The translations under genes and the position numbers were made by a program. From the IMG/VR virus record IMGVR_UViG_3300037358_000010, positions 1 through 26,734 of that record: DNA of 26,734 nt; one strand, written 5' to 3'. Of the stretch, positions 2,388 through 26,293 are shown piece after piece. Source of the stretch: a virus. Positions within the stretch are counted from its first letter, which is position 1, and each line of letters begins with the position of its first letter. The notes beneath the pieces are model-generated. The model was given only the letters and a program-made list of their open reading frames with translations, was not told the origin of the DNA and searched no databases.

Positions 2388-4199
2388 CTATTGATAACTT
2401 TGCTTCACGTTTATCTGCCCGCCCGCGCCCGCGCCGCCTGCGCCAGAAGCCCCAGACCCACCTACACCCACTGTATAATAATAAGCGGTAGCGGGTGCTA
2501 AAATAAGCGCTTTTCCATATCCACCAGCACCGCCACCCGTACCAGCATTATTTGATATTATTCCACCAGTCCCGCCGCCGCCAGCCCCCGTGGCTGGAGT
2601 AGCCGCGTTACCTGTAGTATAAGAACCACTACCAGCGCCCCCGTAATAGCTGTTACCGCCGTCGCCGCCTTGATTGGCGGACGAACCTGCGCCCAGTACA
2701 AGTTCCCCTAAAAATCCAGAGCCCCCAGAAACGGCATCTTCTGTAATAAAACCAGTAATAACCGTTTGTCCCCCGGCACCGCCTACTTGTGTGGGTCCGT
2801 TGGTCCCACCACCACCGCCGGTCATAAGGATGTAGTTACCCGAGATACCGAAGAAACTGGGAGTACCAGCAGAACCCGTACTACCGGACCCATCAGCACC
2901 CCCCTGACCACCAGCACCAATACCCCACACTTCTAGATAAAGAGGAGAGGGGCTGCTCGGAGTAGTATAAGTAGCCAGAGCAGCGACTGCGGAAAACGCA
3001 ATCGTACTTGGGCCGGTACCACTAGTTTTAGTTAAAGTACCGCTAGCTAAGGGTGCCCCAGCCACTACTGTAGCAACCAATAGGCTATCAGTTGTGGAAG
3101 AGCCAACAACTGTAAAAGTTACGCTGTTGTTAGTATAAGTGGCACCCGCGCTTACGCTTGAAGCGGGGATTGTAAAAACATATGCGGTTGCAGATCCATT
3201 AGAAATAAACCTTTGAATAGAAGGCGCGGTAAGCGTAATGGAAGGATTTCCCCAAGTCATGGCAGAAGAACCACCACCGGCAGAAAGTAAACTTTGCCCA
3301 ACACTTCCAACCGTTGTAGGAAGATTGAAATTGTAGGTTCCAGAAGAAGCTTGTCCCTGAATCGTAATTGCACCGCTAGAGCTGCCTAAAACAACGAAGT
3401 CGGTAGCTTGAATTGCCCCGGTACCTGTTATCGTACCCGTAACACCCAAAGTTCCGCTCAAAACCTCGTTAACTCCATGAGCTGTACCTGTAAAAGTGGG
3501 AGAAGCAGAAAAAACAACGTTGCCAGTACCCGTGGTACCACTAACAGTAGTTCCATCAATAGCAGAAACAACCGTAGCGCCTTGAGTTCCAGTTACGTCT
3601 CCAACGAGACTGCCTGAGAAGTTAGTTGCCGTAGTTGCGGTTGTGGCATTACCAGACAAAGAAGCCGTAATAGTTCCGGCACTAAAGTTGCCAGAGCCAT
3701 CGCGTGAAACAATTGTATTTGGGGTGTTCAAATTCGTCGCAGTAGTCGATGAATTTGCAATATTGGTTATGGTGTTAGACGCACCAGAAATAGTCTTATT
3801 TGTAAGCGTCTGAGTGCCATCAGTTGTAACAATAGTCCCAGAAGAAGATCCGGTACCTAGCGTATAAGTCGTATTTGTGGTAGCGTTTGTTGCAATTGTA
3901 GACGTAACACCAGTAGTTTCACCGGAGAGAAGGAAATTGAGCTTTTTAGAAGTATCGGTAGGGTCTACAAACTGGACATTGGATGCGTCTAGGTCCTTGT
4001 TTTGGAGCCTATTGGCACCTTCAGAGGCATGAACCTCCGTCACCACAGGTGACGTGCCACTTTGGGAGCTGACAGCATTAAAATAGGTCATCTTGCCATT
4101 AGTTGACAATACCTCGGTATCGCCCGTAGAAGCGCCATTAGAGCTAGCCTTAGGAACGAGATTGATGCCGTAAAAGAATCTTTTAAACGAAAAAGCCAT
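2388..4199 (-). CDS. Tail fibre with C-terminal glycine-rich domain
   Basis: 603 residues; ATG at 4199 is preceded by a perfect AAGGAG six bases upstream. Residues 1-110 form a fibre-type N-terminus. 'GTQTLTNKTISGA' near 125 is the classic LTNKTI fibre motif, and 140-250 are Thr/Ser/Gly/Asn repeats of a beta-structured shaft. From about residue 419 to the end the protein is a Gly-rich domain with many GG and GGGG runs (GGAGGQ, GGGGTGG), like Gly-rich receptor-binding tips of fibres and adhesins. The shaft segment around 'SGNFSAGTITASL' is closely repeated in the neighbouring 662-aa fibre. It is probably a distal fibre or adhesin on the tail. The host receptor is unknown. Confidence 0.85.
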   Translation of the reverse strand: MAFSFKRFFYGINLVPKASSNGASTGDTEVLSTNGKMTYFNAVSSQSGTSPVVTEVHASEGANRLQNKDLDASNVQFVDPTDTSKKLNFLLSGETTGVTSTIATNATTNTTYTLGTGSSSGTIVTTDGTQTLTNKTISGASNTITNIANSSTTATNLNTPNTIVSRDGSGNFSAGTITASLSGNATTATTATNFSGSLVGDVTGTQGATVVSAIDGTTVSGTTGTGNVVFSASPTFTGTAHGVNEVLSGTLGVTGTITGTGAIQATDFVVLGSSSGAITIQGQASSGTYNFNLPTTVGSVGQSLLSAGGGSSAMTWGNPSITLTAPSIQRFISNGSATAYVFTIPASSVSAGATYTNNSVTFTVVGSSTTDSLLVATVVAGAPLASGTLTKTSGTGPSTIAFSAVAALATYTTPSSPSPLYLEVWGIGAGGQGGADGSGSTGSAGTPSFFGISGNYILMTGGGGGTNGPTQVGGAGGQTVITGFITEDAVSGGSGFLGELVLGAGSSANQGGDGGNSYYGGAGSGSYTTGNAATPATGAGGGGTGGIISNNAGTGGGAGGYGKALILAPATAYYYTVGVGGSGASGAGGAGAGGQINVKQSYQ

Positions 4200-4281: not shown

Positions 4282-4734
4282 CTACGCCGCGATTGGAAAA
4301 GTCCTCGCCCTAACAATCATAATAGCCGCAGTCCCTGTTGAAGTTGTGGTATATTGGAGCTGTCCACCACTAGTTATGGAGAACGTAACGCCTACGTCCG
4401 TACCCGACTGAGTGCGGTCCATAGTCCAATTGCCATTGGTATAAACTAGGTCTAAAGTGTCTAATTCCGTGGCAGCGCCCCGATTAATGGTCATTTCTAC
4501 AATAGCGCCATAGATTAGGGAGCTATTAAAGACTAGGTTGGTTATGGTTGTAGGGACGGCGATATTATCAGCAAGAGTAGCAGTTGTCAGAGGGATATCA
4601 GTAGGAGGAACAAGGCCGTTAACATAGGCCGCTAATGCCACGAACGCGTCGCTAGCATCACTGCCCCATCCGGGCAGATCCCCCGGTTCTGGGTAGTTGA
4701 AAATTTGGCCATTTATTATAATGGGTATGCTCAT
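4282..4734 (-). CDS. Predicted minor virion / tail-associated protein, 150 aa
   Basis: 150 residues; the ATG at 4734 overlaps the stop of the endonuclease VII-like gene (TAATG). The N-terminus combines an 'IIINGQIFNYPEPGD' beta-hairpin with 'LPGWGSDASDAFVALAAYVN', a pattern common in small phage structural proteins near fibres. The rest alternates beta-strands (MTINRGAATELDTLDLVYTN, then WTMDRTQSG) and ends hydrophobically. It has no enzyme motif. Its gene order among fibre genes points to a baseplate, fibre-attachment or head-tail accessory role. The assignment to virion structure is by context and composition only. Confidence 0.65.
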   Translation of the reverse strand: MSIPIIINGQIFNYPEPGDLPGWGSDASDAFVALAAYVNGLVPPTDIPLTTATLADNIAVPTTITNLVFNSSLIYGAIVEMTINRGAATELDTLDLVYTNGNWTMDRTQSGTDVGVTFSITSGGQLQYTTTSTGTAAIMIVRARTFPIAA

Positions 4735-5207
4735 TACAATTTTTCCGACTTCTTAATATACTCAATTGCTTTTAAAAGAAATTCTATGCCAGAATCACAC
4801 TTAAAATTACCAAGTCCCCAATTACAACTATCACACAAAAGTCCCCGAATTCTTCCAGTAACGTGGTTATGATCTACAGCAAAGTCCTTTTTATTCTCTA
4901 ATCTTGGCTTTTCACAAAGAGCGCACTTATCGCCCTGATTTTTTAAAATTTCTTTATACTCCAATAGACTAATGCCGTACTTGTATTTAAGCTTCCAGTG
5001 TCTGTTGTATTCTGGATCTTTTCTTTTCTGTCTTTGTAGTCGATTTCTACATTTTGCCGCACAAGTCTTACATCCGGACCAATAGAAGTTTGGGCCTCGC
5101 TTGCTTTTATAAAAGTTGGTCAGTGGTTGATCTTCTCCTTTAAAATCACAACCTTGGGAAGTACAAGTGGCGGTTATGCCGTTTTTTGATACTTTTAAAA
5201 GCCCCAT
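4734..5207 (-). CDS. Endonuclease VII-like HNH nuclease
   Basis: 157 residues from ATG at 5207. A TTG 48 bases upstream is in frame, but the ATG has a GAGG-type SD and the upstream stretch overlaps the preceding gene. An N-terminal Cys-rich part (C15, C20, C46, C49) precedes the core CALC (95-98), VDHNH (111-115), a TGRIRGLLC stretch and CDSCN (125-129). This is the pattern of T4 endonuclease VII-type nucleases (His-Me finger; D112/H113 and N129 probable active-site residues). Family members resolve branched DNA or act as mobile nucleases. Its position inside the fibre cluster favours a mobile, homing-type gene rather than a core resolvase. Confidence 0.88.
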   Translation of the reverse strand: MGLLKVSKNGITATCTSQGCDFKGEDQPLTNFYKSKRGPNFYWSGCKTCAAKCRNRLQRQKRKDPEYNRHWKLKYKYGISLLEYKEILKNQGDKCALCEKPRLENKKDFAVDHNHVTGRIRGLLCDSCNWGLGNFKCDSGIEFLLKAIEYIKKSEKL

Positions 5208-5229
5208 TAGAACAAAACCTCTTCCACTC

Positions 5230-5391
5230 TTATCTGTTAAATAGCAACAAGGCAACTAGAACAATTATACCAAAGGCTTGTAACCCATTAATAACTAAGG
5301 ATAATTTAAGTTGCTTACGTAACTTAGCCGAGGGGGGTATTTGGGTCTTTAAAGAGGGCAATCCGTGGCTTATATTTCTAAGTCTAGCCAT
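5230..5391 (-). CDS. Small single-span membrane protein, 53 aa
   Basis: This overlooked frame starts at ATG 5391-5389, overlapping the TAA of the 68-aa gene in a TAATG junction, and ends with TAA at 5230-5232. The protein starts MARLRNISHG, is basic through residue 30 (KLRKQLKLS), and has one hydrophobic helix at about 36-51 (AFGIIVLVALLLF) before a terminal NR. It fully explains the gap before the endonuclease VII-like gene, which starts 22 nt downstream. A one-helix phage membrane protein could be a holin-like or exclusion factor, but nothing proves either. Its last codons lie inside one of the five ATCTGTTAA sites. Confidence 0.65.
   Translation of the reverse strand: MARLRNISHGLPSLKTQIPPSAKLRKQLKLSLVINGLQAFGIIVLVALLLFNR
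5232..5240 (-). promoter_or_regulatory. ATCTGTTAA repeat, copy 1
   Basis: The plus strand reads TTATCTGTTAAA at 5230-5241. It shares the 9-bp core ATCTGTTAA with four other gene-boundary sites. On the minus strand it lies 24 nt upstream of the endonuclease VII-like start and overlaps the last three codons of the 53-aa gene. Unlike the other four copies it has no TTGACT promoter beside it. Confidence 0.45.
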
Positions 5392-5597
5392 TAAGAACCC
5401 GTTGCCGCTGTGAAGTTGGTGCCGTCATAAGTAGACCCCGTTTGCACAGGAGAGCCATCCGTACAAGTAGGACTGGCAACATAATTGGTTACAGTAACCA
5501 TAATCCACGTATAGGCAGGATCAAAAACATCAGTTGTTAGCATCATTTGCATATTAACAACCACACCACCTTGAATTTTAGCATAAATATTTGGCAT
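5391..5597 (-). CDS. Small fibre-associated protein, 68 aa
   Basis: 68 residues; the ATG at 5597 overlaps the stop of the 662-aa fibre gene (TAATG). The sequence begins MPNIYAKIQGGVVVNMQMML and ends with 'GSTYDGTNFTAATGS'. This is the signature of short phage proteins with a 'YDGTNFT' C-terminus that follow fibre genes and may act in fibre assembly or as small structural caps. There are no catalytic residues or membrane spans. The family resemblance is recognised from the two end motifs; the assembly role is inferred from context. Confidence 0.7.
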   Translation of the reverse strand: MPNIYAKIQGGVVVNMQMMLTTDVFDPAYTWIMVTVTNYVASPTCTDGSPVQTGSTYDGTNFTAATGS

Positions 5598-7585
5598 TAG
5601 TTATCCCACAAAATATGAATGGCTCCTGCGGAACCTGCACCAGCTATACCGTTACCTGGGCCAGCCCCAGCACCGCCACCGCCATAGCCAGTACCCCCTA
5701 GGCCGTCGTCTCCAATGAAAGCCACATTGCCCACGCCGCCTAAACCCCAGCCCATACCACTACTTCCACCCGGCGCAGATGGGGTTTGCGTTCCAGCAAC
5801 TTTGTTGCCAGCCCCATTTTGTCCAGTGATATTTATAGTGCAATTAGTAGAAGCGCCACCAGCACCACCTACATAGGTTGACACGGTGTCTGGTCCACCC
5901 GCACCGCCAGCTGCGGTATAAGTTGTAGCCCCAATTGTTAGAGAAGTTGTGCCTCCAGCAGCCCCGGGCGTAGCAGATGGGGTGTAAGTGCCCCCCTGAC
6001 CACCAGCCCCGATAGCGATTGTATAGGTTGTATTAGGAGTTAGGCCATTAATATATAAAATGCCAACCCCCGCCCCACCGCCTCCGCAACCGAAAGCAGT
6101 AGCTGTAGCTATACCACCGCCCCCGCCCCCTCCTCCTATTAACGTAAAAGTAAATAGCGTATTAGGAGATATCACAGCTGGAGTTGTATAGGTTGTGCCG
6201 GAAGTTAGAAATGCGAAGCCCTTGGTTACAGAGCCATTCCAAATACCAGCAGTAACTGTGCCGACATTACTATTTCCGTTAACTTGAAGTTTTTGTGTGC
6301 CGCTATCAGTTGTAGTGCCAATTAATAAATCACCCGAAGGGGAAATACGCATAGCCTCCGTAGATGCTATAGAACCTGTTCCCGTAACAGAAAATGAAAT
6401 GTAGGTGGGCATTGATGTATCGGTAAAATTGCCACCAGCATCAATAGCGATAGATCCCGTTGATGTAGCAGGAAATCCCGTGGTACCATACCCCTGTCCG
6501 CTTATGAAATCAAGAGTGTCCCCCGTTTGTGCCGCAGTAGGAGAAGTTGCGGTTCCTCTAGCAAATCTTCCACGAAAACCGACAAAAGAACTAGTTCCAT
6601 AGCCGGTAAGTTCAATACGTTTAGTAGCACCTGTTAGATTGATTGCTTCTAGAAATGTATTGGAATTAGGAGTGTTTGTGCCGATTCCAAGGCTTTGATT
6701 AGCGTCATTCCAGAAGAAATTAGCATTGTCTTGAGTTAGGGAAGTTCCATTAGAGTATATGATAGAACCCGCAGTATAAGACGTTGAGTTATTAGTGCCG
6801 CCGCCAGAAAAGGGGAGGCCCGTAGCGTTAGTTAGTGTTAAAGCGGGCGCATTAGAGAATACAACATTGCCCGTGCCCGTGGTGCCAACAACCGTATTGC
6901 CGTCAATCTTGCTTACAAGCGTGGCACTTTCCGTACCAGTTACATCGCCAGCCAAGGACCCAGTAAAAGTAGCGGCGCTGCCGGACACATTCCCAGATAC
7001 GTTGCCAGTTAGTGATGCAGTAATAGTGCCAGCAGAGAAGTTTCCACTTGCATCGCGTTTAACTATGGTTGAGGGAGTATCTGCGCTAGTTGCGGCCTGT
7101 GTTGCAAGCGCCGCATTATCGAATGTAATCCAATCAACATCAGACAAGTAGCCGTTTTCAAGTGCGGTTGCTTGTTGAATTGAAATTACAGGGTTGACGC
7201 CGCCAGTGCTACTTAGCGGAGATGTAGCAGTAACGGACATAACTCCTCCTACGATATTGACATTAAGACTTCCGTCTGGATTAATTGTTAAAAAGGTACC
7301 AGTTGAGTTGGAAACGGACACAGAACCGGAGATGTGCCAAGGAGTTGAGCCTTGGTTGACCGTTATAGGGTCGTTATTAACTGTATTGACATTGAGTGCC
7401 CCATTAGTTACGGTAGCTAGATTACCAGAGGCATCCCCAATAGTTATGTTGTCATCTATGCTATTGATGCTAACTTCAACATCCCCAATAACAGCAGTAA
7501 CTTCAGCATTAACGTTTAGGGCGTGGTCAGCTGGGACATGTACGTCTTGTAGAATCTGCTGCTGACTTTGTTGGCTTGGTACCAT
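5597..7585 (-). CDS. Long tail fibre with C-terminal glycine-rich domain
   Basis: 662 residues from ATG 7585. The N-terminal 120 residues are beta-repeats rich in Val/Asn (VEVSINSIDDNITIGDASGN). Residues about 125-260 carry shaft repeats including 'SGNFSAGTITASL' and 'GDVTGT', shared with the 603-aa fibre. Further on, 'LGIGTNTPN' and 'AMRISPSGDLLIGTT' match motifs that usually precede a C-terminal S74 intramolecular chaperone. Here no S74 peptidase follows. Instead residues about 455-662 are a Gly-rich domain with runs of eight glycines and 'GGGGAGAGPG'. It is probably a receptor-binding fibre. An AAGG SD lies five bases before ATG, and the gene heads the left minus-strand operon. Confidence 0.85.
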   Translation of the reverse strand: MVPSQQSQQQILQDVHVPADHALNVNAEVTAVIGDVEVSINSIDDNITIGDASGNLATVTNGALNVNTVNNDPITVNQGSTPWHISGSVSVSNSTGTFLTINPDGSLNVNIVGGVMSVTATSPLSSTGGVNPVISIQQATALENGYLSDVDWITFDNAALATQAATSADTPSTIVKRDASGNFSAGTITASLTGNVSGNVSGSAATFTGSLAGDVTGTESATLVSKIDGNTVVGTTGTGNVVFSNAPALTLTNATGLPFSGGGTNNSTSYTAGSIIYSNGTSLTQDNANFFWNDANQSLGIGTNTPNSNTFLEAINLTGATKRIELTGYGTSSFVGFRGRFARGTATSPTAAQTGDTLDFISGQGYGTTGFPATSTGSIAIDAGGNFTDTSMPTYISFSVTGTGSIASTEAMRISPSGDLLIGTTTDSGTQKLQVNGNSNVGTVTAGIWNGSVTKGFAFLTSGTTYTTPAVISPNTLFTFTLIGGGGGGGGIATATAFGCGGGGAGVGILYINGLTPNTTYTIAIGAGGQGGTYTPSATPGAAGGTTSLTIGATTYTAAGGAGGPDTVSTYVGGAGGASTNCTINITGQNGAGNKVAGTQTPSAPGGSSGMGWGLGGVGNVAFIGDDGLGGTGYGGGGAGAGPGNGIAGAGSAGAIHILWDN

Positions 7586-7823: not shown

Positions 7824-7953
7824 GCTTATGTATGTTCTTGTTTTAATTGCACTTTTGGGCCTTTCAGCTTGTCCCAATGCTAAGCATGACCCAAGCCAAG
7901 ACGGCGTTAACTATTTCCGCAATGGAACGATTAATAAGGGCAATAAATTTTAA
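7816..7953 (+). CDS. Small lipoprotein, 45 aa
   Basis: ATG 7816 follows a strong GGAGG five bases upstream and reads to TAA 7951-7953. The N-terminus is a textbook lipoprotein signal: MNKLMYVLVLIALLG followed by the lipobox LSAC, with Cys19 as the expected lipidated residue. The mature part is only 27 polar residues (begins CPNAKHDPSQDG). Phages use such tiny lipoproteins as receptor blockers or as outer-membrane spanin subunits. Overlap with a gene for a small anchored protein would suit either, but the partner looks too short for a standard inner spanin. The lipoprotein call is firm; the role is not. Confidence 0.82.
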   Translation: MNKLMYVLVLIALLGLSACPNAKHDPSQDGVNYFRNGTINKGNKF

Positions 7954-7966
7954 ATTTGGTGCTTTA

Positions 7967-8605
7967 ATGAATATTGTAGCAATAAGCGACACCCATTGCC
8001 GTTTGCGTAAGATTGAGGTTCCCGATGGGGACCTATTAATCCATGCCGGAGACCTAACCTTCCAAGGCAATATTCAAGAGATTGGGCAAGAACTGAGAGA
8101 ACTTGGGCGCATTGCTAAACGCTTTAAATATGGTTGTGTATTTATTTGCGGCAATCATGATTGGCTAGGAGAGCGTAATCCTGCTCTTATGAAGCAAATG
8201 GCCATTGATAATGGACTTACTTACCTGGACCACTCTTCGGTTCAAATCGAGGGATTGAATATTTTCGGGTCGCCATATACCCCCGAATTCCACAATTGGG
8301 CCTTTAATGTTGACCGAGCTGCGCTAAAGCCTTATTGGGACGTTATACCAGATGATACTAATATATTGATTACACACGGCGGTCCTATGGGAACATTAGA
8401 TGAAGTTGAAATGGAACATGTTGGGTGTTACGACTTAAAAAATAGAATAAAAGAACTAAGGCAGTTAAAACTTCACATATTTGGTCATATTCATGGTAGT
8501 TATGGTCATATTAAAGTCGGAGATGTAAACTTTATTAATGCCTCAATTTGTACAGAACAATACGCACCAGTTAATGAACCTTTGATTATTGAAATAGGAG
8601 AATAA
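7967..8605 (+). CDS. Calcineurin-like metallophosphoesterase (MPPED-type)
   Basis: 212 residues. An in-frame upstream extension exists, but ATG 7967 begins the conserved core directly (MNIVAISDTHCR). All metal-binding motifs are present: D8-x-H10, GD at 28-29, GNHD at 62-65, H137 in THGG, and GHIH at 173-176. The compact form and a 'GSPYTPEF' loop resemble MPPED-type enzymes, which hydrolyse phosphodiesters including cyclic nucleotides. It could remove host signalling nucleotides or process RNA ends. It sits third in plus operon 1, 13 nt after the lipoprotein gene. A second, unrelated-looking metallophosphoesterase is at 21491. The fold is certain; the substrate is unknown. Confidence 0.93.
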   Translation: MNIVAISDTHCRLRKIEVPDGDLLIHAGDLTFQGNIQEIGQELRELGRIAKRFKYGCVFICGNHDWLGERNPALMKQMAIDNGLTYLDHSSVQIEGLNIFGSPYTPEFHNWAFNVDRAALKPYWDVIPDDTNILITHGGPMGTLDEVEMEHVGCYDLKNRIKELRQLKLHIFGHIHGSYGHIKVGDVNFINASICTEQYAPVNEPLIIEIGE

Positions 8606-10526: not shown

Positions 10527-11756
10527 TTAGGTACCATTCACGATTTGCGTAATCATAACATTGACAGCGGGCTTGGCACAGAAGAGGGCTTGGTCAGAAT
10601 AGGCGCGAAGTTCATATCCCGCACTATTTTCCAAGTCCCTGAAGAACTCATCTCCCTTACCAGGGCGTTTGAAGGTAACGTCGGTTGACCCGATGCGGCT
10701 CCATTCGTCCATAGCAAGAACATAAGCATAGCCTTCTTTTACATAGATAGAAGGTTCGATCGTAATCTTGCCGTTCTGTCCGTAGTATTCGATGGCCTTG
10801 CTGCCTGTTTCGGTCGTTCCATCTGAATAGCTGGAATCATACCGACGTAGAGCAGCTTCGTCGCCCATCAAGTCCGCCCACGTCTTCGGATTAACGAAGC
10901 AATGAACGTCCGTATCTAGGCCCTTACCAACTGCAACCGCGATAGCGTGTTGTACTTTGGTGAAGGAGAGCTGTGCAGATCCGGCAGAGTAGATGTTACC
11001 TTGCCAGAGATTATACGAAGCAGCGGAGATGTTGAACAACGTCCCCGTGTTTTGCATAATAGCCTGAACGCCAGCGAATTCGTTGCCGTAAGCGCCTTTG
11101 TGCCAGATTACGTCCGTAGCAATCGTGCCAGCAGGGAGCTGGTCAAGAGTGATGGTATAGCCATCAATATTAACCTGAACCACCGTAGCAAGACCGCGAC
11201 TAACCGTTCCCGCAGCGTTTCTGATTTCGATTGGCATCTGTTCAGCGCCAGCCCAAATACCAGCAGCGAATTCTGCCGTTACTAGGGTGATCGTTGCACC
11301 AGCCGTCGAACCAACGACTCCATAACCAACTTGGCCATAGAGCATTTCAATCTCAAGCTTTTTAGCAAGAGAGCGAATCATGTTAGCAACGAGATACTTG
11401 GTAGCATTCTCGAACGCCTGTTCTCCGCCCTGCGCAGCACGAGAAGCTGAGGTATAGCCGAGGACTGACCGAAGCACAACGGGGTTACCGCGTACTTGAG
11501 CGTCCTTCAACTGTCCAGCAACTGGAGCATTGAGGTTGAAAGCGTCGTCATCGCTAGAAGCGAAGGTAACGCCGTGTTCGAGTCCCAAGATCACGGGTTG
11601 GTGATAGAGGTTACCGAGCATCTTTTCTTTTCCAGAAAAAGGGATTTCATTCATTAACTTAACGCCATCTGGAATCAGATTTTCGATCTGTTTGGCGTAT
11701 CTTTCCTTGAACATACCATTTAAGGTATCAAGGGTATTTGCACTAGGTTGTGACAT
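10527..11756 (-). CDS. Major capsid protein, HK97-type fold
   Basis: 409 residues. Length, position after the scaffold and decoration genes, and overall pattern fit an HK97-fold coat protein. There is an N-arm (residues 1-60), an E-loop/P-domain region with 'RGNPVVLRSVLGYTSASRAA', a spine helix around 'ATKYLVANMIRSLAKKLEIE' followed by 'MLYGQ', and a C-terminal A-domain with 'TDVHCFVNPKTWADLMGDE'. It would form the icosahedral shell around the scaffold. The SD is AAAGGA, 11 bases before ATG. It is the last gene of the head operon, next to the terminator. Capsid identity is inferred from pattern and context and is quite strong. Confidence 0.86.
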   Translation of the reverse strand: MSQPSANTLDTLNGMFKERYAKQIENLIPDGVKLMNEIPFSGKEKMLGNLYHQPVILGLEHGVTFASSDDDAFNLNAPVAGQLKDAQVRGNPVVLRSVLGYTSASRAAQGGEQAFENATKYLVANMIRSLAKKLEIEMLYGQVGYGVVGSTAGATITLVTAEFAAGIWAGAEQMPIEIRNAAGTVSRGLATVVQVNIDGYTITLDQLPAGTIATDVIWHKGAYGNEFAGVQAIMQNTGTLFNISAASYNLWQGNIYSAGSAQLSFTKVQHAIAVAVGKGLDTDVHCFVNPKTWADLMGDEAALRRYDSSYSDGTTETGSKAIEYYGQNGKITIEPSIYVKEGYAYVLAMDEWSRIGSTDVTFKRPGKGDEFFRDLENSAGYELRAYSDQALFCAKPAVNVMITQIVNGT

Positions 11757-11795: not shown

Positions 11796-12311
11796 TTACT
11801 GAACGACGTGATAATCCGCGATGATTACGCCCGTGAGAGTCGTAGTCGCGAGATTGACGCCGGTACCAACTGTAAACGCGATATTCTCACCTTCCGTCAG
11901 AGGAGCCGGAGGAGGATAAATACCTGGAACGGGTTCCGTTGAAATCGTAATACCCGTTGAATTATTACCATTGAGAGTGAGTGTATACCCGCCCGCACTG
12001 TTAATATTGTCTACAGCTATCTTGAAAAGCTGATCAACTCCCGTATCCCGTCCACCGAGACCGTAAAGAAGAACCCCGAAGGTTCCACTTGAGTCAGCAG
12101 CAGCTGGAGAGAAGTTGCAGTTTGGATCAAGGGCCGCCGCAGTAGCAGTATTGCCCTGCGTGCTAAGATATGCTACAGATGGAAGTCCGGTTGAAGTAAC
12201 CTTGTTCGCAGGAGTAGCACTTGCAGTAATCGAAAACGGAACACAAAGCCTGCGAGATTTTAGCTCCCAGTCATTAAGTTGCGAATTGGCATTATTACCT
12301 GATTGTGCCAT
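11796..12311 (-). CDS. Head-associated / decoration-like protein, short copy
   Basis: 171 residues starting MAQSGNNANSQLNDWELKSR. It is a clear paralogue of the neighbouring 384-aa protein. Residues 1-100 and the last 55 (from 'STGITIS' to the end) align nearly collinearly, with the same motifs 'LDPNCNFSPA', 'GTFGVLLYGLGGRD' and 'GENIAFTVGTGVNL'. It lacks the 200-residue insert of that copy. Position between scaffold/IBP-like gene and major capsid gene suggests a capsid decoration protein or a head-fibre base. No catalytic motif is present. Role by context only. Confidence 0.72.
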   Translation of the reverse strand: MAQSGNNANSQLNDWELKSRRLCVPFSITASATPANKVTSTGLPSVAYLSTQGNTATAAALDPNCNFSPAAADSSGTFGVLLYGLGGRDTGVDQLFKIAVDNINSAGGYTLTLNGNNSTGITISTEPVPGIYPPPAPLTEGENIAFTVGTGVNLATTTLTGVIIADYHVVQ

Positions 12312-12462: not shown

Positions 12463-13617
12463 TTACTGAACTAGCAGATAGTCAGCCGTGACAGTTCCTG
12501 ATAGATTGGTTGTAGACAGGTTGACACCCGTAATAACCGTAAAAGCAATATTCTCTCCTGAAGCCAGAGGGGCATTAGGAGGATAGACGCCCGGCATAAT
12601 CGTAGAGACCGTAATCCCTGAAGAAGCCTGTCCATCTAGAACAATAACCCAAGGAGCAGACCCACCAGAAAGAGCAAGTTGCATCGTTGTAGCCGCGCTA
12701 ATAGTTACAGCACCCGTTAGAGCCAAGAGCTGACCATTGCTTGCGCCACCATCTACCGTGATAGAAGATTGGGCAATTAGAGTTCCTTCAAAAGTTCCCG
12801 TACCGCTAACATTTAGCGTGGCACTTGAACCGACAGCAAAATACAAATTGGCAGCCGTAGCTCCACCCGTAAATGCAATCGTGGGAGTTCCACCAGCGCC
12901 TGTGGTTAGAGTTGAGGCCGTCTGGATTACATATACACCAGCGCCGTTAAGCGTTAATGTCCCGTTGCCAGAAGCAGCAAGAGAAGCAGCGCCAGAAGTG
13001 AACTTATAAACGCCGGGGGTTAAGGTCTGACCATCAAGAGCAGAAGGGATTACCGTAGCTGACCGGGTAGAAAGATCCGTATATGCGGCAGTAGCGGCGA
13101 TTTGAGCATTAGCTGCTGCACCATTGGCCACATTCTCCGTGCCGTTAATTACGCCAGGTGGGAAACCCGTTACAGAGGTACCAGGATATAGACCAACGTT
13201 TCCAGTAATAACAGTTGATCCCGTATTGGTAATCGTAGATCCAGCTAGAACGGCATACGTTGAAGCAGACCCTAAATTGGGGCTACCAGCAGGAGCAGCG
13301 GGGCTAACAATAGGTCCCGCCGTAATCCTAAATAGCTGAGCAACGCCTTCGTCGCGTCCGCCGAGGCCATAAAGAAGAACACCAAAGGTTCCAGTAGAAT
13401 CATTGGCCGCAGGAGAAAAATTACAATTTGGGTCAAGAGCTTGGGCAGTTGCAGTTTGGCCTTGAAGAGAGAGGGTCATTACTGAAGGAGTTCCAACAAG
13501 GGAAGTCTTCAGGGAAGGAGTAGCATTAGCCGTAATGCTGAAAGGCATATCAAGACGGCGGCTTTTTAGCTGCCAGTCGTTTAACTGCATGTTATCGTTA
13601 TTACCTGATTGTGCCAT
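12463..13617 (-). CDS. Head-associated protein with inserted DUF3494 ice-binding-type domain
   Basis: 384 residues. An in-frame upstream Met adds 27 residues, but ATG 13617 has AAAGGA six bases upstream and begins MAQSGNN exactly like the paralogue. Residues 1-103 and about 318-384 match the short copy. Residues about 113-314 form a complete DUF3494-type domain: 'NLGSASTYAVLAGSTITNTG', 'GNVGLYPGTSVTGFPPG', an Ala-rich helix (AANAQIAATAAYTDL), 'LTPGVYKFTS', 'GVYVIQTASTLTTG', 'FAVGSSATLNV', 'GTLIAQSSITVDGGA' and 'ALTGAVTI'. This family folds as a beta-solenoid with a side helix. Several members bind ice; others do not or are untested. Gene order (scaffold, this gene, short copy, capsid gene) suggests display on the capsid. 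Ice binding is inference; the domain identity is strong. Confidence 0.88.
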   Translation of the reverse strand: MAQSGNNDNMQLNDWQLKSRRLDMPFSITANATPSLKTSLVGTPSVMTLSLQGQTATAQALDPNCNFSPAANDSTGTFGVLLYGLGGRDEGVAQLFRITAGPIVSPAAPAGSPNLGSASTYAVLAGSTITNTGSTVITGNVGLYPGTSVTGFPPGVINGTENVANGAAANAQIAATAAYTDLSTRSATVIPSALDGQTLTPGVYKFTSGAASLAASGNGTLTLNGAGVYVIQTASTLTTGAGGTPTIAFTGGATAANLYFAVGSSATLNVSGTGTFEGTLIAQSSITVDGGASNGQLLALTGAVTISAATTMQLALSGGSAPWVIVLDGQASSGITVSTIMPGVYPPNAPLASGENIAFTVITGVNLSTTNLSGTVTADYLLVQ

Positions 13618-13814: not shown

Positions 13815-14711
13815 TTAGCCCCTAAGCTTGAAGAATTCCTTCATGGTCATCTTCTTAGGCGGCTCTTTCTTATCAGGAGCAGAACTTCTGCCCGTATCTT
13901 GAACTGGAGCAGCCTTAACTAGTTGCTTCTGAGTTTCCGTTAACCGCTTAGACTTCATGCCCTTAATGCGATCTTTGCCTAAGAATTGCTCTACAAGCTC
14001 GTCTGGAGCAGCTTTGAACATCTCCCTGATATCACTCTCAATTTCGTTCTTAACAAGAGGAGAAATGTCCGTTGTGGAAATGTCAATTCCATTTTCCAGA
14101 GCGGCGAGCATAAAGTCAGCATAACGTTTAATAACATAAGGGCTTTCTGGCAAACCAGCACCCTTAATGGCGTTTTTAATGCTATTGTCAATCTCATAAG
14201 CAGCTTTTTGCTGTTCATTGGCCAAGCGCTCTTGAGTGCGCTCTTGTTCAAGCTTAGTCTTTTCTGCACGAAGCTGCTCAAGTTCTTTACTGGCCTTTTC
14301 ATTAGCTTTTTGTTCTGGAGATTTCTTTTCTTCCGCAACCTGCTTTTCTAAAAAGCCAACAAGTTGTTTCTTTACATCAATGCCTAAACGAGGATCGGAT
14401 AGAACTGCAAAGGGATCTTTCTGCAATTGAGCAATAAATTCATTAACTTGCTTCTCTAAGTCAGCTTTTTCTTGGGACTTTTTGTGGCCCATCTTCCCAA
14501 GCTGCGCAAGCTTAATAACTTCTTCTTCACTTAGCTCTTCTTCTTTACCTTCAAACTTAAGCTTGAGCTTCCTAATTTCAGCAGCAGCTTTGGTAGCAGC
14601 TGGTGCAGCAGGAGGCGCTGCGGCGGCAGAAGCGGGAATTGCTGTTGCATCGGGGGCGGGGGTAGTAGAAGCATCGATTGCAGCTGGCGCTGCGGTATTG
14701 GTATCACTCAT
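13815..14711 (-). CDS. Capsid scaffolding protein
   Basis: 298 residues. Residues 1-45 are Ala/Pro/Thr-rich and disordered. Residues 45-75 are charged (KLKLKFEGKEEELSEEEV). About 75-175 form a long coiled coil rich in Lys, Glu and Gln, and the C-terminus is basic (KKEPPKKMTMKEFFKLRG), as expected for a coat-binding end. Composition, length and position between portal and coat genes are typical for an internal scaffold that guides procapsid assembly and then leaves. The SD AAAGGA lies upstream of ATG 14711. A slightly different name in the database is possible, but the role is well supported. Confidence 0.85.
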   Translation of the reverse strand: MSDTNTAAPAAIDASTTPAPDATAIPASAAAAPPAAPAATKAAAEIRKLKLKFEGKEEELSEEEVIKLAQLGKMGHKKSQEKADLEKQVNEFIAQLQKDPFAVLSDPRLGIDVKKQLVGFLEKQVAEEKKSPEQKANEKASKELEQLRAEKTKLEQERTQERLANEQQKAAYEIDNSIKNAIKGAGLPESPYVIKRYADFMLAALENGIDISTTDISPLVKNEIESDIREMFKAAPDELVEQFLGKDRIKGMKSKRLTETQKQLVKAAPVQDTGRSSAPDKKEPPKKMTMKEFFKLRG

Positions 14712-15027: not shown

Positions 15028-17286
15028 TTAAGATTGAAGATTATCTGCTGGATTAATGGGTAGTCCTAGCGGATTTTTTGGTAAATTCGGTAAACTGACA
15101 CCGTTTTCAATCCCAGGACCCGTTACCCGCGAGGAGCCATTGGGCAGCACAAATTGGTTGGCCGGAGCCATCCCAGAAGGGGACGTTCCAGGACCGCCTT
15201 GCGGACCCTGACCCGGCTGCTGGGGATGGCCATGATGACCCCCACCAGGATGCCCAGGATGGCCTCCATGAGGATTATGCGGCCCTTGAGGACCCTGAGG
15301 CGGCATTGGAGCTGGGGGAGAAGGAGGACCCGCATTAGGAGGAGGTCCCATCGGTCCCGGCATTGGTCCGGGAGCGCCCATTTGAGGCCCTTGTGGAGGT
15401 CCAGGAGGAGGCCCGGGAGGGGCCGGGGGGGCTGGAGGAGGGGGGGGCTGAATCGGCTGCTGACCCAAAAGCATAAGCATATTGGGATTGGCTTCTTGAA
15501 GCATTGTGAAATGCTCTTGAATGTGGTCCCCAACCAACTTCGTTAGCTGTGGGTCCATTCTCAAATCAGGATCAGAGAGTAATTCTCTGTGCTCTAGAAT
15601 ATGCTGTTTGTGCTCATCGGTGAATAAGCAAGCGACGGGCTCTTTATCCATCATGCGTTCATTCTCTTGCCGGATTAACATATTCTGCTTCTGATCGCTC
15701 TCAAACATAAGTTCAATTTGGCCAGTATTCATAACCATGAGATACTCTTGAGGAGTTTTAATAGCTCCCATTTGGAGTAAGTCACGAGCCATTTCAACTC
15801 GACCTGCGGTAGTGCGTGACAGCGGATTGGCAATGCTCACCTGAACTCTGGCAATATTGCTAATGTCCTTATTAGAGAACTCCCTAACATAAGAGCGTTT
15901 TGACTTGCCGCTAATCATCGTAATGGCGCGTTCAGTTGTAGCAAAGTCCTGAAGCATCTTAATAAGTCCTGTGCCCACATTTTCGCAAAGCCTTACATAA
16001 CTATTCTGAAGTCCACTAATAAACTGAATAGCCATGGATTGAACCATTGCAAGAGATGTGCCAGATTTAAGAGAAGCTTCTGGATTGCCTCTAGTGACGC
16101 TATTAATGCCGGAAAGGGTTTCCATGTCCTTAACAAGCCTATCAAGGAAATTATAGGTCTCGCCGCTTGACGCGGTTAACTGCATCGGTTCTGGCTTTCC
16201 AATATTGGCATTATAGTCAATGAAATTCATGCCGCCCATTTGTTGAAGGCTAACATCGTTGCCTCTAGGATTTAGGATGCTTTGAACCGCAAAGGCGTTG
16301 TTATTAGTTGCGACAGCACTATAAAGCACGTTCAGAATTTCCTGAAGAGGAATTAAGTCGAACATAATGGTGTAGCCATACGGAGTGCCCATAATGTCAG
16401 AAGGAGATACACGATAGACGGGCATTTGTCTATAAGGCATATCCATATCCATAAATACGGTATCGCCAGTACAAAAGATCATATAGCGGCCATTAGGCAC
16501 CGCTTCTGTACGCCTATGATAGAACTCAAACAGGCTTACATCGTCAGTTTTGTCATAAGAAGCATTCATAAACCGATAGTTTTCCTGATCGGTTTTATCT
16601 CTAATAGCTAAAATTTCACTCTCAAATTGCGGATACTTTGCAATTAGATCATATTTATTCTTAAAGGTGCGGGTCAAAATCCAGTCGTTTTCGTCGGAAG
16701 TCTCTTTGGAACCGTCTACAACAACATCGAAAGGACTTAGATTCTGGATGATTACGTCCCCTTCGTACATGGGATTGCCTTCTTCATCGTAGTCATAAAT
16801 CTCACCGGCCATTGCATCCCAACCAAGCTTGATGTAGCCACTTCCAAGAACAATAGCGTATTCAACGGCGCGCTTTAGCTTATCTTCTAACTTCTTTTCG
16901 CGAAGATAGTAGTCCAATACACCGTCAGCGACAAGCGTCTGTGCTAGGGACTTATAGTCCGTATTAACCGCACGAGCTTCATAGGCTGGACGGCTAGAGG
17001 TCGTCATCTCAAGCATGTGAGAAGCAATGTTTCGAAAGTGATTGACTGGGAGGTGGAGGAATTCTTCTTGTTCCCCCGTAAAGGTAATTTCATGACCGGC
17101 GCTAATATCGCCTAAGTTAGCTCCATAATAAGCTGCCCAACAACGCCTAACCTTCTCTAGATAGCGATTGCGCTCAATGATGTTATTCCAATCATTAATC
17201 TTCTTTTCCAGAATCTCGGCAGTATCTAAGCTACTCTTATTAGCAAAATAAGTAGTTTCATCAGTATCTTGTTGCTGTAGTGCCAT
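15028..17286 (-). CDS. Portal protein (P22-type) with Pro/Gly/His-rich C-terminal tail
   Basis: 752 residues. The sequence pattern fits the P22-type portal family: an N-terminal 'RNRYLEKVRRCWAAYYGANL', then 'NHFRNIASHMLEMTTSSRPA', 'LSPFDVVVDGSKETSDENDW', 'VYRVSPSDIMGTPYG' and an 'LSGINSVTRGNPEASLKSGT' region. Twelve copies would form the DNA gate at one capsid vertex, bound by TerL during packaging. Residues about 614-707 are an unusual run of Pro, Gly, Gln and His (PPPPPAPPAPPG; HPGHPGGGHHGH), and the last 30 residues are again ordinary. The ATG is served by AAAGGA seven bases upstream, which overlaps the TerL stop. Identity is strong. Confidence 0.92.
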   Translation of the reverse strand: MALQQQDTDETTYFANKSSLDTAEILEKKINDWNNIIERNRYLEKVRRCWAAYYGANLGDISAGHEITFTGEQEEFLHLPVNHFRNIASHMLEMTTSSRPAYEARAVNTDYKSLAQTLVADGVLDYYLREKKLEDKLKRAVEYAIVLGSGYIKLGWDAMAGEIYDYDEEGNPMYEGDVIIQNLSPFDVVVDGSKETSDENDWILTRTFKNKYDLIAKYPQFESEILAIRDKTDQENYRFMNASYDKTDDVSLFEFYHRRTEAVPNGRYMIFCTGDTVFMDMDMPYRQMPVYRVSPSDIMGTPYGYTIMFDLIPLQEILNVLYSAVATNNNAFAVQSILNPRGNDVSLQQMGGMNFIDYNANIGKPEPMQLTASSGETYNFLDRLVKDMETLSGINSVTRGNPEASLKSGTSLAMVQSMAIQFISGLQNSYVRLCENVGTGLIKMLQDFATTERAITMISGKSKRSYVREFSNKDISNIARVQVSIANPLSRTTAGRVEMARDLLQMGAIKTPQEYLMVMNTGQIELMFESDQKQNMLIRQENERMMDKEPVACLFTDEHKQHILEHRELLSDPDLRMDPQLTKLVGDHIQEHFTMLQEANPNMLMLLGQQPIQPPPPPAPPAPPGPPPGPPQGPQMGAPGPMPGPMGPPPNAGPPSPPAPMPPQGPQGPHNPHGGHPGHPGGGHHGHPQQPGQGPQGGPGTSPSGMAPANQFVLPNGSSRVTGPGIENGVSLPNLPKNPLGLPINPADNLQS

Positions 17287-17296
17287 ATAGTTTCCT

Positions 17297-18745
17297 TTAG
17301 CGCTTTCTTATTTTAAATAGCTTTAGAAGAGCAGGTTCTTTTTTGTTTTGGTATTCTTTGGTATAGTGCCATTCAGACTCAGATCCATACTGATGGCCAT
17401 AAGGATAGGGGTTCTTGCTAATCTGCACGTTCCTACATAAGTAGCAAAGAGCGTCTACACCATCATAATGTCCGGCATCAGGAGAACGGGTATAAGTCTT
17501 GCGGCTTTTGGTCCAGGTTGCATTTTGGAGATGTAAAATTAGGTTCTTGCAACGCGGATTGATTATAACTTGGCCGCTCTTAATCATAACCCGCATATTA
17601 TTTAAGGCAGCGTCTTTGTCATCTTTTTCCGTAGCTTGGAACAAAAGCTTATGAGTTTGTTGCAAATCATTTATCAGAATCTTATTGTTATCGCTAACAC
17701 GCATATAAGGAGGCTTTGGCTCATTTGTGTATTGATCTTTCCACAAATTGGCCTCTTTGAACTTAATGGCCGTCGCAAGAACGTCCGTAGTCATTCTTTG
17801 ACCATTCATAACAAGCTCATCTTCAATTATGAGTTTATTTTTCTTAAAGTCCCAATAGGAGAATATAACGAAGGTTAGGTCATCAAAACCAATATCCATG
17901 GACACATAGCAATCCATGAACTTAGGACGTTCCCAATCTTTTACGCAGTCTTTGCGACATTGCTCATCGAACTCGGGAACAACCTGGAAGTTGCTGTCGG
18001 TTATAAACTCGCAAAGGAATTCGCGCCTAAACTCAACGCTATTGCGTCCGCCGTATTCAGCGGCCATGTCATCAACCTGCTGCTTTGTATAACGAGGGCA
18101 ATCGTCGATGGTAAAGAGAACTAAATCGCCCCTAAAGCGAGCTTCTTTAACATAGTGCTCGGCAAAATCATGATCGGCTGCGCGTGGGGGCGTGGAAGAA
18201 AGAATAATGCGACCATTTGTTGACAGTGTCGTAGGAAGCAGAACACTACGAACAATATACTCAAGCTCAGTTACGAATCCGGCTTCATCGATTATGCACA
18301 GGTCGGCCTTACCGCCGCGCATAGACTCATATTGCTGATTGTCGCATCCAGCAATTTGTATTTCACTGCCGTTCTTGAATTTGAATATGCTATCATCTTT
18401 GCGATAGACAGGAAGAAGGTCGTCAGGACAGTCCATTAGGATTTCCTGGAACAAGGGGCGTAGTATTGTACGCACCTGCTTTTGTTCGGGAGCTAGATAC
18501 TTGACAATAGCATTTGGCTTGCGTAGGCAAGTTTGGATTGCTATAATAGCTAAATCGTAGGACTTTCCAAGACGCCTAGAGCATACCCAAGTGCTAATCT
18601 TATGAGGACTGGCGGTATAAGCCTCATACATCTTGAGTTGGGTTGAGTCCAACTTCCAAGTGATGTTGGCACGACGCCAGAGAGCGTTAGAGGCTTCGGA
18701 TTTTGAGAATGAGGGGGAGTTTTGTTGCTTAATGATTACGGACAT
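17297..18745 (-). CDS. terL: Terminase large subunit
   Basis: 482 residues, the usual length. The ATPase half has Walker A CSRRLGKS (55-62), the phage-type variant with Arg before GKS, Walker B LCIIDEA (149-155) and coupling motif ILSSTPP (181-187). The RNase H-like nuclease half begins around 'YVSMDIGFDDLTFVIF', with D284 as the expected first metal ligand, and ends with 'GHYDGVDALCYLC' supplying a late acidic residue. It pumps phage DNA into the procapsid through the portal and cuts the concatemer. The start overlaps the preceding gene's stop by 10 bp. Confidence 0.96.
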   Translation of the reverse strand: MSVIIKQQNSPSFSKSEASNALWRRANITWKLDSTQLKMYEAYTASPHKISTWVCSRRLGKSYDLAIIAIQTCLRKPNAIVKYLAPEQKQVRTILRPLFQEILMDCPDDLLPVYRKDDSIFKFKNGSEIQIAGCDNQQYESMRGGKADLCIIDEAGFVTELEYIVRSVLLPTTLSTNGRIILSSTPPRAADHDFAEHYVKEARFRGDLVLFTIDDCPRYTKQQVDDMAAEYGGRNSVEFRREFLCEFITDSNFQVVPEFDEQCRKDCVKDWERPKFMDCYVSMDIGFDDLTFVIFSYWDFKKNKLIIEDELVMNGQRMTTDVLATAIKFKEANLWKDQYTNEPKPPYMRVSDNNKILINDLQQTHKLLFQATEKDDKDAALNNMRVMIKSGQVIINPRCKNLILHLQNATWTKSRKTYTRSPDAGHYDGVDALCYLCRNVQISKNPYPYGHQYGSESEWHYTKEYQNKKEPALLKLFKIRKR

Positions 18746-21256: not shown

Positions 21257-21498
21257 GACAAGTAGAAAAGTATTACAGTTTCTTTATTCCAGCTCTAAAC
21301 AAGGCCCATCCCTTTAAACGCGTTAACCAAGTGCTCACCGTAAAGCTCCGAGACGAAGAAGTTATGGAACTTGGCAGCGACAACCTTCATGTGGTATTTC
21401 CTAAGGAGTACGAGGTTATTAATGTTCGCTCAGCACCTATGAAGACAGAATCAGCTTGGCTTATAAGCGCAACCGTAAAGGATTGGGAACTTGATTAA
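21253..21498 (+). CDS. Hypothetical protein, 81 aa, GTG start
   Basis: GTG 21253 overlaps the preceding stop as GTGA. The predicted fold is mixed alpha/beta ('HPFKRVNQVLTVKLRDEEV', 'VVFPKEYEVINVRS', ending 'ATVKDWELD'). No motif is recognised. The stop lies inside the TTG-start region of the following phosphoesterase gene. Confidence 0.65.
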   Translation: MRQVEKYYSFFIPALNKAHPFKRVNQVLTVKLRDEEVMELGSDNLHVVFPKEYEVINVRSAPMKTESAWLISATVKDWELD

Positions 21499-22222
21499 AT
21501 TAATCTATCTTTATGTACAGGCTGTCGCCGCGAGGATTAAACGCCATTTCCGCAAGAATAACCTCTCATGGTTTTGTAGCGACTATCATTTCGGTCATGC
21601 TGCAATTATTGGCTATTGTGACAGACCTTTTAGAAATGTGAAGTCTATGGACCGCTTTCTTCTCTTCCAGTGGAATTGCTACATTGGACCAAAAGACACC
21701 GTTTATTTCCTTGGAGACTTCGCCCTTAATAGACAGGCGCTATCTACAATAGGCCCCAAGCTTAATGGTAGAAAGTTTCTCGTTTCCGGCAATCATGATA
21801 AGACTTTCCTAAAGAAAGAAAGCAAGAATAAGAATGCCGCAGGAGATATTAATAAAGCTGTTGCCGCTGGTTGGACCGTAACCCAGAAGATTGAACTTGG
21901 AGCAGTGCGTGATGGGGAAGAACTTCGTATTATCATGACACATCTTCCTCCAAAACACATAGAGCTTACCGCTTATGATCAGCGGTTTCTTAATGAGCGT
22001 ATTGACCACGACCCCAAAGCACTCCATCTTCATGGACACCTTCACGGCAAGTACACAAAGAAGGGCAACGCAATTGACGTAGGATGGGATAGCTTTAGGC
22101 GTCCAGTAACACTTAAGGAGATTATGAATGTTTTCCAAGATGAAAGACAATATATTGCGTCTCCTATCGAGGCTTTCAATAACTGGCGGCGTGAGAATGA
22201 AAAAGACAAAAACGCAAGCTAA
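21491..22222 (+). CDS. Calcineurin-like metallophosphoesterase, TTG start
   Basis: 243 residues. TTG at 21491 has AAAGGA about eight bases upstream, and no in-frame ATG precedes the first catalytic motif. All metal sites are present: D31-x-H33 in 'WFCSDYHFGHAAII', GD at 75-76 (LGDF), GNHD at 100-103, H151 in MTHLPP, and GHLH at 182-185. This is the very common phage phosphoesterase type with 'RPF..V..MD..L...WN'. It acts on phosphoester substrates, often 2',3' or 3' RNA/DNA ends in related families, but the substrate is not fixed. It overlaps a PNK-like kinase gene by 26 bp, which suggests a joint nucleic-acid-end function. Confidence 0.92.
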   Translation: MIKLIYLYVQAVAARIKRHFRKNNLSWFCSDYHFGHAAIIGYCDRPFRNVKSMDRFLLFQWNCYIGPKDTVYFLGDFALNRQALSTIGPKLNGRKFLVSGNHDKTFLKKESKNKNAAGDINKAVAAGWTVTQKIELGAVRDGEELRIIMTHLPPKHIELTAYDQRFLNERIDHDPKALHLHGHLHGKYTKKGNAIDVGWDSFRRPVTLKEIMNVFQDERQYIASPIEAFNNWRRENEKDKNAS

Positions 22223-22676
22223 AGTTGTAGTTCTAGTAGGACTTCCTGCAAGTGGTAAAAGTTATTTCGCCAAAGAATTGTGGGATAACGGTTATTTTGT
22301 AGTTAATCAAGATAGTGTGGGCTCAAGAGAAGCTTGTATAACTAAAGCTAAAAACGCCCTTGAGAGGGGCTATAATATTGTTATTGACCGCTGTAATATA
22401 AACAAAAAGCAGAGATCTTTTTGGACTAAACTAGCTAAGCAATATAAAGCAGAGTTGGACTGCGTTGTGTTTGATCCCCATGTAGATATTTGTACCCAGA
22501 ATGCTGTGTCCCGTAAAGGACATCCCAACTTCCCGACTGATCCGGATAAGATTGAGGAAATTATAAGAAAGTTCGAGAAAGAATATGAACCGCCCAGTAA
22601 AGAAGAAGGCTTTAAAAGTATTACGCATCATCACAGCTATCATGGCTACTCTAACACTTACTTTTATCGGGAGTAG
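22197..22676 (+). CDS. Polynucleotide-kinase-like P-loop kinase
   Basis: 159 residues from ATG 22197; a longer frame from 22128 would add 23 residues overlapping the phosphoesterase. The Walker A motif GLPASGKS is at 15-22. D39 in 'VVNQDS' is in the position of the general base, 'VIDRCNINKKQRSFW' (62-76) matches the PNK-family 'DN-T-N' strand, and R106 in 'NAVSRKGHP' is a lid arginine. The family phosphorylates 5' ends of RNA or DNA, or sometimes small molecules. Direct overlap with a metallophosphoesterase supports an end-healing role. Substrate is inferred. Confidence 0.85.
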   Translation: MKKTKTQAKVVVLVGLPASGKSYFAKELWDNGYFVVNQDSVGSREACITKAKNALERGYNIVIDRCNINKKQRSFWTKLAKQYKAELDCVVFDPHVDICTQNAVSRKGHPNFPTDPDKIEEIIRKFEKEYEPPSKEEGFKSITHHHSYHGYSNTYFYRE

Positions 22677-25092: not shown

Positions 25093-25286
25093 TTAAAACA
25101 CTGCTTGTTGGAACTCTCTTAACGGCCCTAGAAGCCGTCGTAACCCTCCCCATCACCATCCCGCTTTATTATGCCTTCACAACGGCTAATAACGCCTACT
25201 ACCTCCTAGCAATTCCAGGAACCTTGGCCTATATCTACTTTACCGGACTTGCCGCTATTAAAGAACTAGAGAAGCGCGGGCAGTGA
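25089..25286 (+). CDS. Two-helix membrane protein, 65 aa
   Basis: ATG 25089 overlaps the previous TGA. Hydrophobic spans at about 5-29 (LLVGTLLTALEAVVTLPITI) and 37-54 (YYLLAIPGTLAYIYFTG) are joined by a short polar turn, and the tail is basic (KELEKRGQ). This is the layout of a small class II holin, but superinfection-exclusion and other membrane roles are equally possible. The stop overlaps the GTG of the nucleotidyltransferase gene. Confidence 0.7.
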   Translation: MIKTLLVGTLLTALEAVVTLPITIPLYYAFTTANNAYYLLAIPGTLAYIYFTGLAAIKELEKRGQ

Positions 25287-26293
25287 ATAAAATTGTAGAG
25301 CTGTCGTTTGGGTCACATTTGTATGGAACAAATACCCCCCAATCCGATACCGATATTAAGGGCATCTACATCCCAGAAGCCCGGGACATTCTGCTTGGCC
25401 GGTATGCCAAGACAGTCTCTTCAACTAGGCCTAAGCGAGAAGGAGAGCGGAACACCAAGGATGATGTAGATACAGAGTTCTTTAGCCTTGATCGCTATTT
25501 AGAACTCCTAATGGCTGGTCAGACGGTTGCCTTGGATATGCTCTTTGCTCCAGACTTTGCAAACGCCCACCCCATTACCCGCACTCTTTATGAGAATCGG
25601 CACAAGCTCCTAAATAAGAACGTGACCAGCTTCATTGGCTATACAAAGCAGCAAGCTAGTAAATATGGTATTAAGGGCTCACGCCTAGACGCCCTAAACA
25701 ACGTAGAAACGTGGTTGGGTGCCCTACCTCCTAGGAGTCGCCTGGGAGATCATCTGAAGGGCATTGAGGAGCTTATAGCAGCTTGTACGCCACTAGTTAG
25801 CTTAGAGAAGACTCCGCTTGTGCGCGTTGTGCAAATTGTTAGCCCTATCGGACCTAATGAACGCGGGCTAATGCCTCATTTGGAAGTGTGCGGCAAGATG
25901 TATAGTTTTACCACCCATGTCCAGAATGTCTATGACCAAGTGCATAAGAAGGCTTTAGGCTATGGTGACCGAGCCCGTATGGCCTCTGTTGAGGGGGGCA
26001 TTGATTGGAAGGCCCTAAGTCATGCTGTTCGTGTAGCAAGTGAAGCTATAGAGCTTCTTAAGACAGGCCACATTACCTTTCCCTGCCCCAACCGAGAATT
26101 ACAGTTGGCTATTAAGACAGGTAAGGTTAAGTATGCTGAAGTTGCAGAGCTTATTGAACAAGGCCTAGTAGACCTTCTCGCTGCGCAAGAAGTTTCCTTC
26201 TTAAGAGAAGAGTCAGACAAGGAATGGGCAGATAACCTAGTTGTGAACACTTACAGCACCGTTGTTGCTTTTAATATAGGGGCAAGTTTATGA
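25283..26293 (+). CDS. RlaP-like nucleotidyltransferase
   Basis: 336 residues, GTG start overlapping the previous stop. 'FGSHLYGTNTPQSDTDIKGI' (9-28) is the signature of RlaP-type polymerase-beta-superfamily nucleotidyltransferases: GS at 10-11 and catalytic D22-x-D24, with further acidic residues at 61-65 (DVDTE). A helical C-terminal domain follows. The family was named for its association with RNA ligases and is thought to act in RNA repair; T4-like phages carry relatives. With the kinase and phosphoesterases upstream it may be part of an RNA-repair set. The enzyme class is confident; the substrate is inferred. Confidence 0.86.
   Translation: MNKIVELSFGSHLYGTNTPQSDTDIKGIYIPEARDILLGRYAKTVSSTRPKREGERNTKDDVDTEFFSLDRYLELLMAGQTVALDMLFAPDFANAHPITRTLYENRHKLLNKNVTSFIGYTKQQASKYGIKGSRLDALNNVETWLGALPPRSRLGDHLKGIEELIAACTPLVSLEKTPLVRVVQIVSPIGPNERGLMPHLEVCGKMYSFTTHVQNVYDQVHKKALGYGDRARMASVEGGIDWKALSHAVRVASEAIELLKTGHITFPCPNRELQLAIKTGKVKYAEVAELIEQGLVDLLAAQEVSFLREESDKEWADNLVVNTYSTVVAFNIGASL

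Follow-up and report, generated by a model that had tools for sequence, protein, structure and literature searches.

The window analysed here, that is, the whole stretch of 26,734 nucleotides of the viral record IMGVR_UViG_3300037358_000010, is a fragment of a tailed phage in which the genes for the terminase, a P22-type portal, a probable scaffold and two paralogous proteins are followed by that for the coat protein. The longer of the two paralogues carries an inserted ice-binding-type domain. The features to which we refer are the following.

17297–18745, minus strand: terminase large subunit (phrog_2 E 2e-43, PF03237)
15028–17286, minus strand: portal protein (P22_portal E 2e-11, phrog_156 E 6e-19)
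13815–14711, minus strand: probable scaffold protein, from its position and because most related phages have homologues ahead of the coat gene
12463–13617, minus strand: 384-aa decoration-type protein with inserted domain (ATG at 13617, AAAGGA upstream)
13309–13617, minus strand: its N-terminal part, residues 1–103 (57% identical to the 171-aa neighbour)
12649–13308, minus strand: whole insert including Pro/Ala/Ser/Gly-rich linkers, residues ~104–323 (BLASTP against the short paralogue)
12676–13281, minus strand: PF11999/DUF3494 ice-binding-type beta-solenoid, residues 113–314 (PF11999 E 1.2e-35; AlphaFold2; Z 32 to 7bwy and 6eio)
12463–12648, minus strand: its C-terminal part (60% identical to the 171-aa neighbour)
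11796–12311, minus strand: 171-aa domain-free paralogue, modelled as helix plus beta-sandwich (related phages have homologous ORFs of 139–175 aa in this position)
10527–11756, minus strand: major capsid protein (phrog_14242 E 5e-17; 52 viral relatives)

Elsewhere in the window, Endonuclease VII-type and HNH endonuclease genes (4734–5252 and 862–1512, both minus strand) lie among probable tail or fibre genes, and two long fibre-like proteins (5597–7585 and 2388–4199, minus strand) have glycine-rich C-terminal regions, with PF21722 in the first. There are also two calcineurin-like phosphoesterases (7847–8602 and 21491–22219), as well as an RlaP-type nucleotidyltransferase and an AAA_33 kinase (25283–26290 and 22128–22673, plus strand), which possibly form an RNA or tRNA repair set.

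The inserted domain and its carrier protein

The sequence-only reading of this DNA had placed a DUF3494 domain in the 384-aa protein, and both profile search and structure modelling confirm it. Namely, PF11999 matches residues 124–311 at 123.5 bits (E 1.2e-35), where the curated cut-off is 28.7 bits, and the match runs over profile positions 1–206 of 208, that is, over the full domain, as expected of a family member (the scanned protein had 385 aa, with one residue ahead of the ATG); in a six-frame search, the profile also matches the DNA at 12688–13251. In an AlphaFold2 model, for which an alignment of phage domains served as input, residues ~112–316 form the DUF3494 fold, mostly at pLDDT >90, with the discontinuous beta-solenoid braced by one long helix (residues 166–184) plus coils; this model covers the domain and not the flanks. 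The model superimposes on 7bwy with Z 32.0 (rmsd 1.1 over 195) and on 6eio with Z 31.9; the remaining DUF3494 structures in the list match it at Z 28–32. In this sense, the domain is like the known ice-binding proteins of the family (EfcIBP 6eio, AnpIBP 7bwy, FfIBP, ColAFP), with the same full-length domain and fold, and the closest two are 38–43% identical to it in structural alignments. The nearest solved protein by sequence is EfcIBP (E 1.5e-37).

The frame of the carrier is intact, and in the program-made list of open reading frames an earlier TTG start would extend it to 411 aa. As had been noticed from the sequence, its ends match those of the 171-aa neighbour that lacks the domain, with BLASTP identities of 57% (N part) and 60% (C part), and the insert replaces about 7 residues of the short form. 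The insertion point, after the ..QLFKI strand, maps between predicted strands 92–102 and 110–114 of the short-form model. Of the earlier claim that the domain sits in an exposed loop, the site between predicted strands and the Pro/Ala/Ser/Gly-rich linkers are borne out, and the exposure itself is putative. Only 3.4% of the residues of the domain are charged and 64% are S, T, A, G or N. The protein has no hydrophobic export-like segment (maximum KD 1.05).

Head-gene neighbourhood and related phages

The position of the carrier beside the scaffold and coat genes, pointed out at the outset, holds, and it recurs in related phages. These were collected via the coat gene rather than the short paralogue, with which a direct search of the viral contigs gave no match. 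Viral contigs yielded 52 relatives of the coat protein, and in most of those with a readable region one short ORF of ~100–175 aa stands between the scaffold and coat genes. The 171-aa protein is homologous to those of 139–175 aa (best 35% identity, E 6e-24), and shorter forms of 98–121 aa at the decoration position align over the same ends. A distant Silvanigrella phage, whose coat protein is 29% identical, also retains the order scaffold, 167-aa protein, coat. The gene for the decoration protein D (gpD) of phage lambda likewise lies between the scaffold and coat genes, as do those of similar decoration proteins. From this gene order and homology, we infer a role in capsid decoration for the 384-aa protein, a reading strengthened both by the synteny in related phages and by the occurrence of the same domain in tail sheaths, to which we return below.

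The short form is predicted to consist of a helix plus a beta-sandwich (pLDDT 76), and its best structural match, at Z 6.4, is to unrelated proteins; two mixed alignments, A2 and A4, were excluded from modelling because decoration rows were misplaced in them. There is no confident fold match for it in the PDB or among viral models and no PHROG match, nor does it have a sequence or confident fold match to the known decoration families (beta-tulip, OB, Ig and tadpole folds). As regards the host, 396 genomes from the phylum to which a Bryobacteraceae MAG belongs gave no match to the sheath or the coat protein.

Several of the window phage's relatives (L106, L109, L115–L122 and L131) have a coat match truncated towards its 5' side, with long ORFs just upstream that look, by eye, like homing endonucleases (GIY-YIG-like and others); this suggests an intron in the coat gene. 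Rfam gave no known intron family in L106, L109, L118, L121 or L131.

The same domain in other phage structural proteins

The sequence-only reading knew of no decoration protein of this kind, and DUF3494 is indeed absent from the folds in a review of decoration proteins (PMC7602432). Nor is the domain a one-off oddity of the capsid. Namely, 46 loci were found with a profile built from three phage domains; they lie on 43 further uncultured viral contigs, which hold 67 PF11999 match segments in all and up to five per record. The carriers are of many types, including tail sheaths (L006, phrog_2839 E 2e-27; L025, phrog_279 E 1e-29; the L002 type, with a weak PF17482 match), FN3-like proteins (judged by eye), a minor-tail-like family (L023, phrog_9922 E 7e-7), tail-protein-like proteins (L035, phrog_8763 E 4e-6, and L041) and long fibre-like proteins. 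The module is present in some and absent from other homologous structural proteins of several types, both decoration proteins and sheaths. In particular, 8 of the 14 loci of the L002 sheath family have the domain (767–976 aa) and 6 of the 14 do not (565–624 aa), and in L003 a 341-aa carrier lies beside shorter domain-free ORFs that resemble it at the N-terminus. What we take to be northern peat or glacier-forefield soils are the source of several of the IMG samples, a point to which we give little weight.

A nested insertion is seen in three FN3-like proteins (L040 4500–6182, L047 2365–3879 and L048 2508–4022), where another segment interrupts the DUF3494 domain. L025 (4398–7214) has a tail sheath of 938 aa in which the match comes in two pieces, with the C-terminal part before the N-terminal part, and this swapped order looks like a circular permutation.

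Among 50,697 catalogued phage records, tblastn gave no match to the window protein, its paralogue or two phage ice-binding-type domains. The same method with one such domain, used as a positive control, matched 38 plasmid records, so that the absence from phage records is no failure of the method. Among predicted viral structures, the only matches were three DUF3494 proteins of a giant virus (Hyperionvirus).

A second case in the decoration family itself comes from L098, where two genes in tandem code for a domain-bearing protein of 380 aa and a domain-free one of 154 aa. Here, the insertion is at a different, later loop, just before the last strand (..DCCLEVNYIV). In the tree, the L098 domain groups with one from L005 (98/84), and the window domain with L004 and L008 (95/94); a tree constrained to unite the two decoration domains is rejected (AU p 0.027). 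Given the different groups and the rejected constraint, the two insertions are most simply taken as independent events. What is more, phage domains cluster apart from cellular ones, with 4 label changes against 36 when shuffled (the cellular set being the pattern-selected best 80), and the domain has thus spread chiefly from phage to phage and rarely to or from cells. As the window is a single metagenomic contig, one could suspect a chimeric assembly or a chance similarity. This we regard as virtually impossible: the frame is intact, the match has an E-value of 1e-35, dozens more contigs carry the domain and an independent case exists in the same decoration family; the E-value and the recurrence rule this candidate out.

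Could the gene instead be an auxiliary metabolic gene, whose product, an ice-binding protein in soluble or secreted form, would shield the host cell during infection? PF11999 has been reported in viral contigs and so interpreted: PMC11515562, the only paper in the searched literature in which PF11999 and phage occur together, describes the same Pfam family in three Arctic vOTUs as host cryoprotection genes. The same paper names S-SKS1 as the main viral homologue, in which we found no PF11999 match. Cellular DUF3494 ice-binding proteins are mostly secreted, and 91 of 93 cellular DUF3494 proteins (pattern-selected, from the best 80 rows) have an export-like hydrophobic stretch ahead of the domain. 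In contrast, such a segment is found in 6 of the 46 phage carriers and is missing from the other 40 as well as from the window protein, where the domain, its activity putative, is inserted in a phage protein. Moreover, the domain lies inside head and tail proteins, and the phage domains are not scattered among host ones. Because export-like segments are mostly missing and the carriers are head and tail proteins, the published cryoprotection reading fits these architectures poorly, and we consider it very improbable here.

Display, adhesion and ice

The known system that comes closest is that of the Ig-like accessory domains (T4 Hoc, T5 pb10, N4 gp17, and insertions in sheaths and fibres). Like the module studied here, these are non-essential, vary in presence even among close relatives, occur in decoration, sheath, fibre and tail proteins alike, and apparently pass from one phage to another (PMC7602432, PMC9230969). 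However, the window domain is a DUF3494 beta-solenoid and not an Ig sandwich, so that it would work like the Ig-like domains without being one of them. The decoration review describes five folds, none of them DUF3494 (PMC7602432), and a sheath survey, in which extra domains are mostly Ig-like and adhesion or stability is suggested for them, does not list it either (PMC9230969). Taken together, this points to a previously undescribed ice-binding-type display module on virus particles. A bacterial parallel is the Shewanella SfIBP-type adhesin (6bg8), in which, judging by the title under which PMC7966756 cites Vance et al. 2018, DUF3494 is likewise a module of a larger extracellular protein; it differs in being bacterial and no virion protein, and is 29% identical.

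It is our belief, held with a probability of roughly 0.78, that DUF3494 serves these phages as a virion-display adhesion module, in the way that Ig-like domains serve other phages. What we infer in this proposal is virion assembly, copy number, adhesion and ligand; it runs as follows. The decoration beta-sandwich would have taken up the solenoid in a strand-to-strand loop, with short flexible linkers holding it off the phage head, and the 171-aa paralogue would be the plain version of the decoration protein. The module would move between phage structural proteins, be they decoration, tail sheath, FN3-like or fibre-like. Many copies of its flat, low-charge, Thr/Ser/Ala-rich face could then give weak multivalent adhesion, with avidity, to a repetitive surface such as host envelope or exopolymer, particles, or ice.

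One can also argue that the solenoid only adds bulk or capsomer contacts, as a stabiliser or spacer with no external ligand. Many decoration proteins do cement capsids (PMC7602432), and extra sheath domains may stabilise the sheath (PMC9230969). That said, carriers as unrelated as head, sheath and fibre proteins have the domain and close relatives lack it, so that assembly does not depend on it, and the flexible linkers argue against fixed contacts; a purely structural role thus seems to us rather unlikely.

Is ice the ligand? A true ice-binding virion would be a special case of the display and adhesion reading, in which the displayed domains adsorb to ice and hold particles near hosts in brine or films, or protect them through freeze-thaw. 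The closest solved sequence, EfcIBP, is an experimentally studied ice binder, whose IRI and TH are compared in PMC12337378, and the window domain has few charged residues. Furthermore, mutating T20 and A214 of TisAFP7 affects antifreeze activity (PMC7966756), and alignment places Ser and Thr at these positions in both the window domain and EfcIBP, in a family without a consensus motif. On the other hand, a b-face with S/T in place of Ala is taken as a sign of weaker ice binding, and the family holds both ice- and substrate-binding members (PMC12337378). DUF3494 is also frequent in mesophiles, being found in mesophilic Streptomyces, Thaumarchaeota and Thermoplasmata in our cellular scan (pattern-selected, best 80). 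Consequently, of the name ice-binding given to the domain at first, the family identity stands and the function is putative. We regard ice as a possible ligand, though a doubtful one, and the broader statement that the heads and contractile tails of uncultured tailed phages bear a coat of functional ice-binding domains, by which the virions adsorb to ice, as slightly more doubtful still. If true, ice-adsorbed virions would be retained, concentrated or protected where their hosts live.

The display reading itself, if correct, would add a second widespread class of virion-display modules besides the Ig-like domains, in a fold best known for binding ice. Those viral PF11999 genes that are listed as host cryoprotection genes call for a re-reading in its light, and it would offer a testable handle on how phages of soil and cold habitats stick to surfaces.
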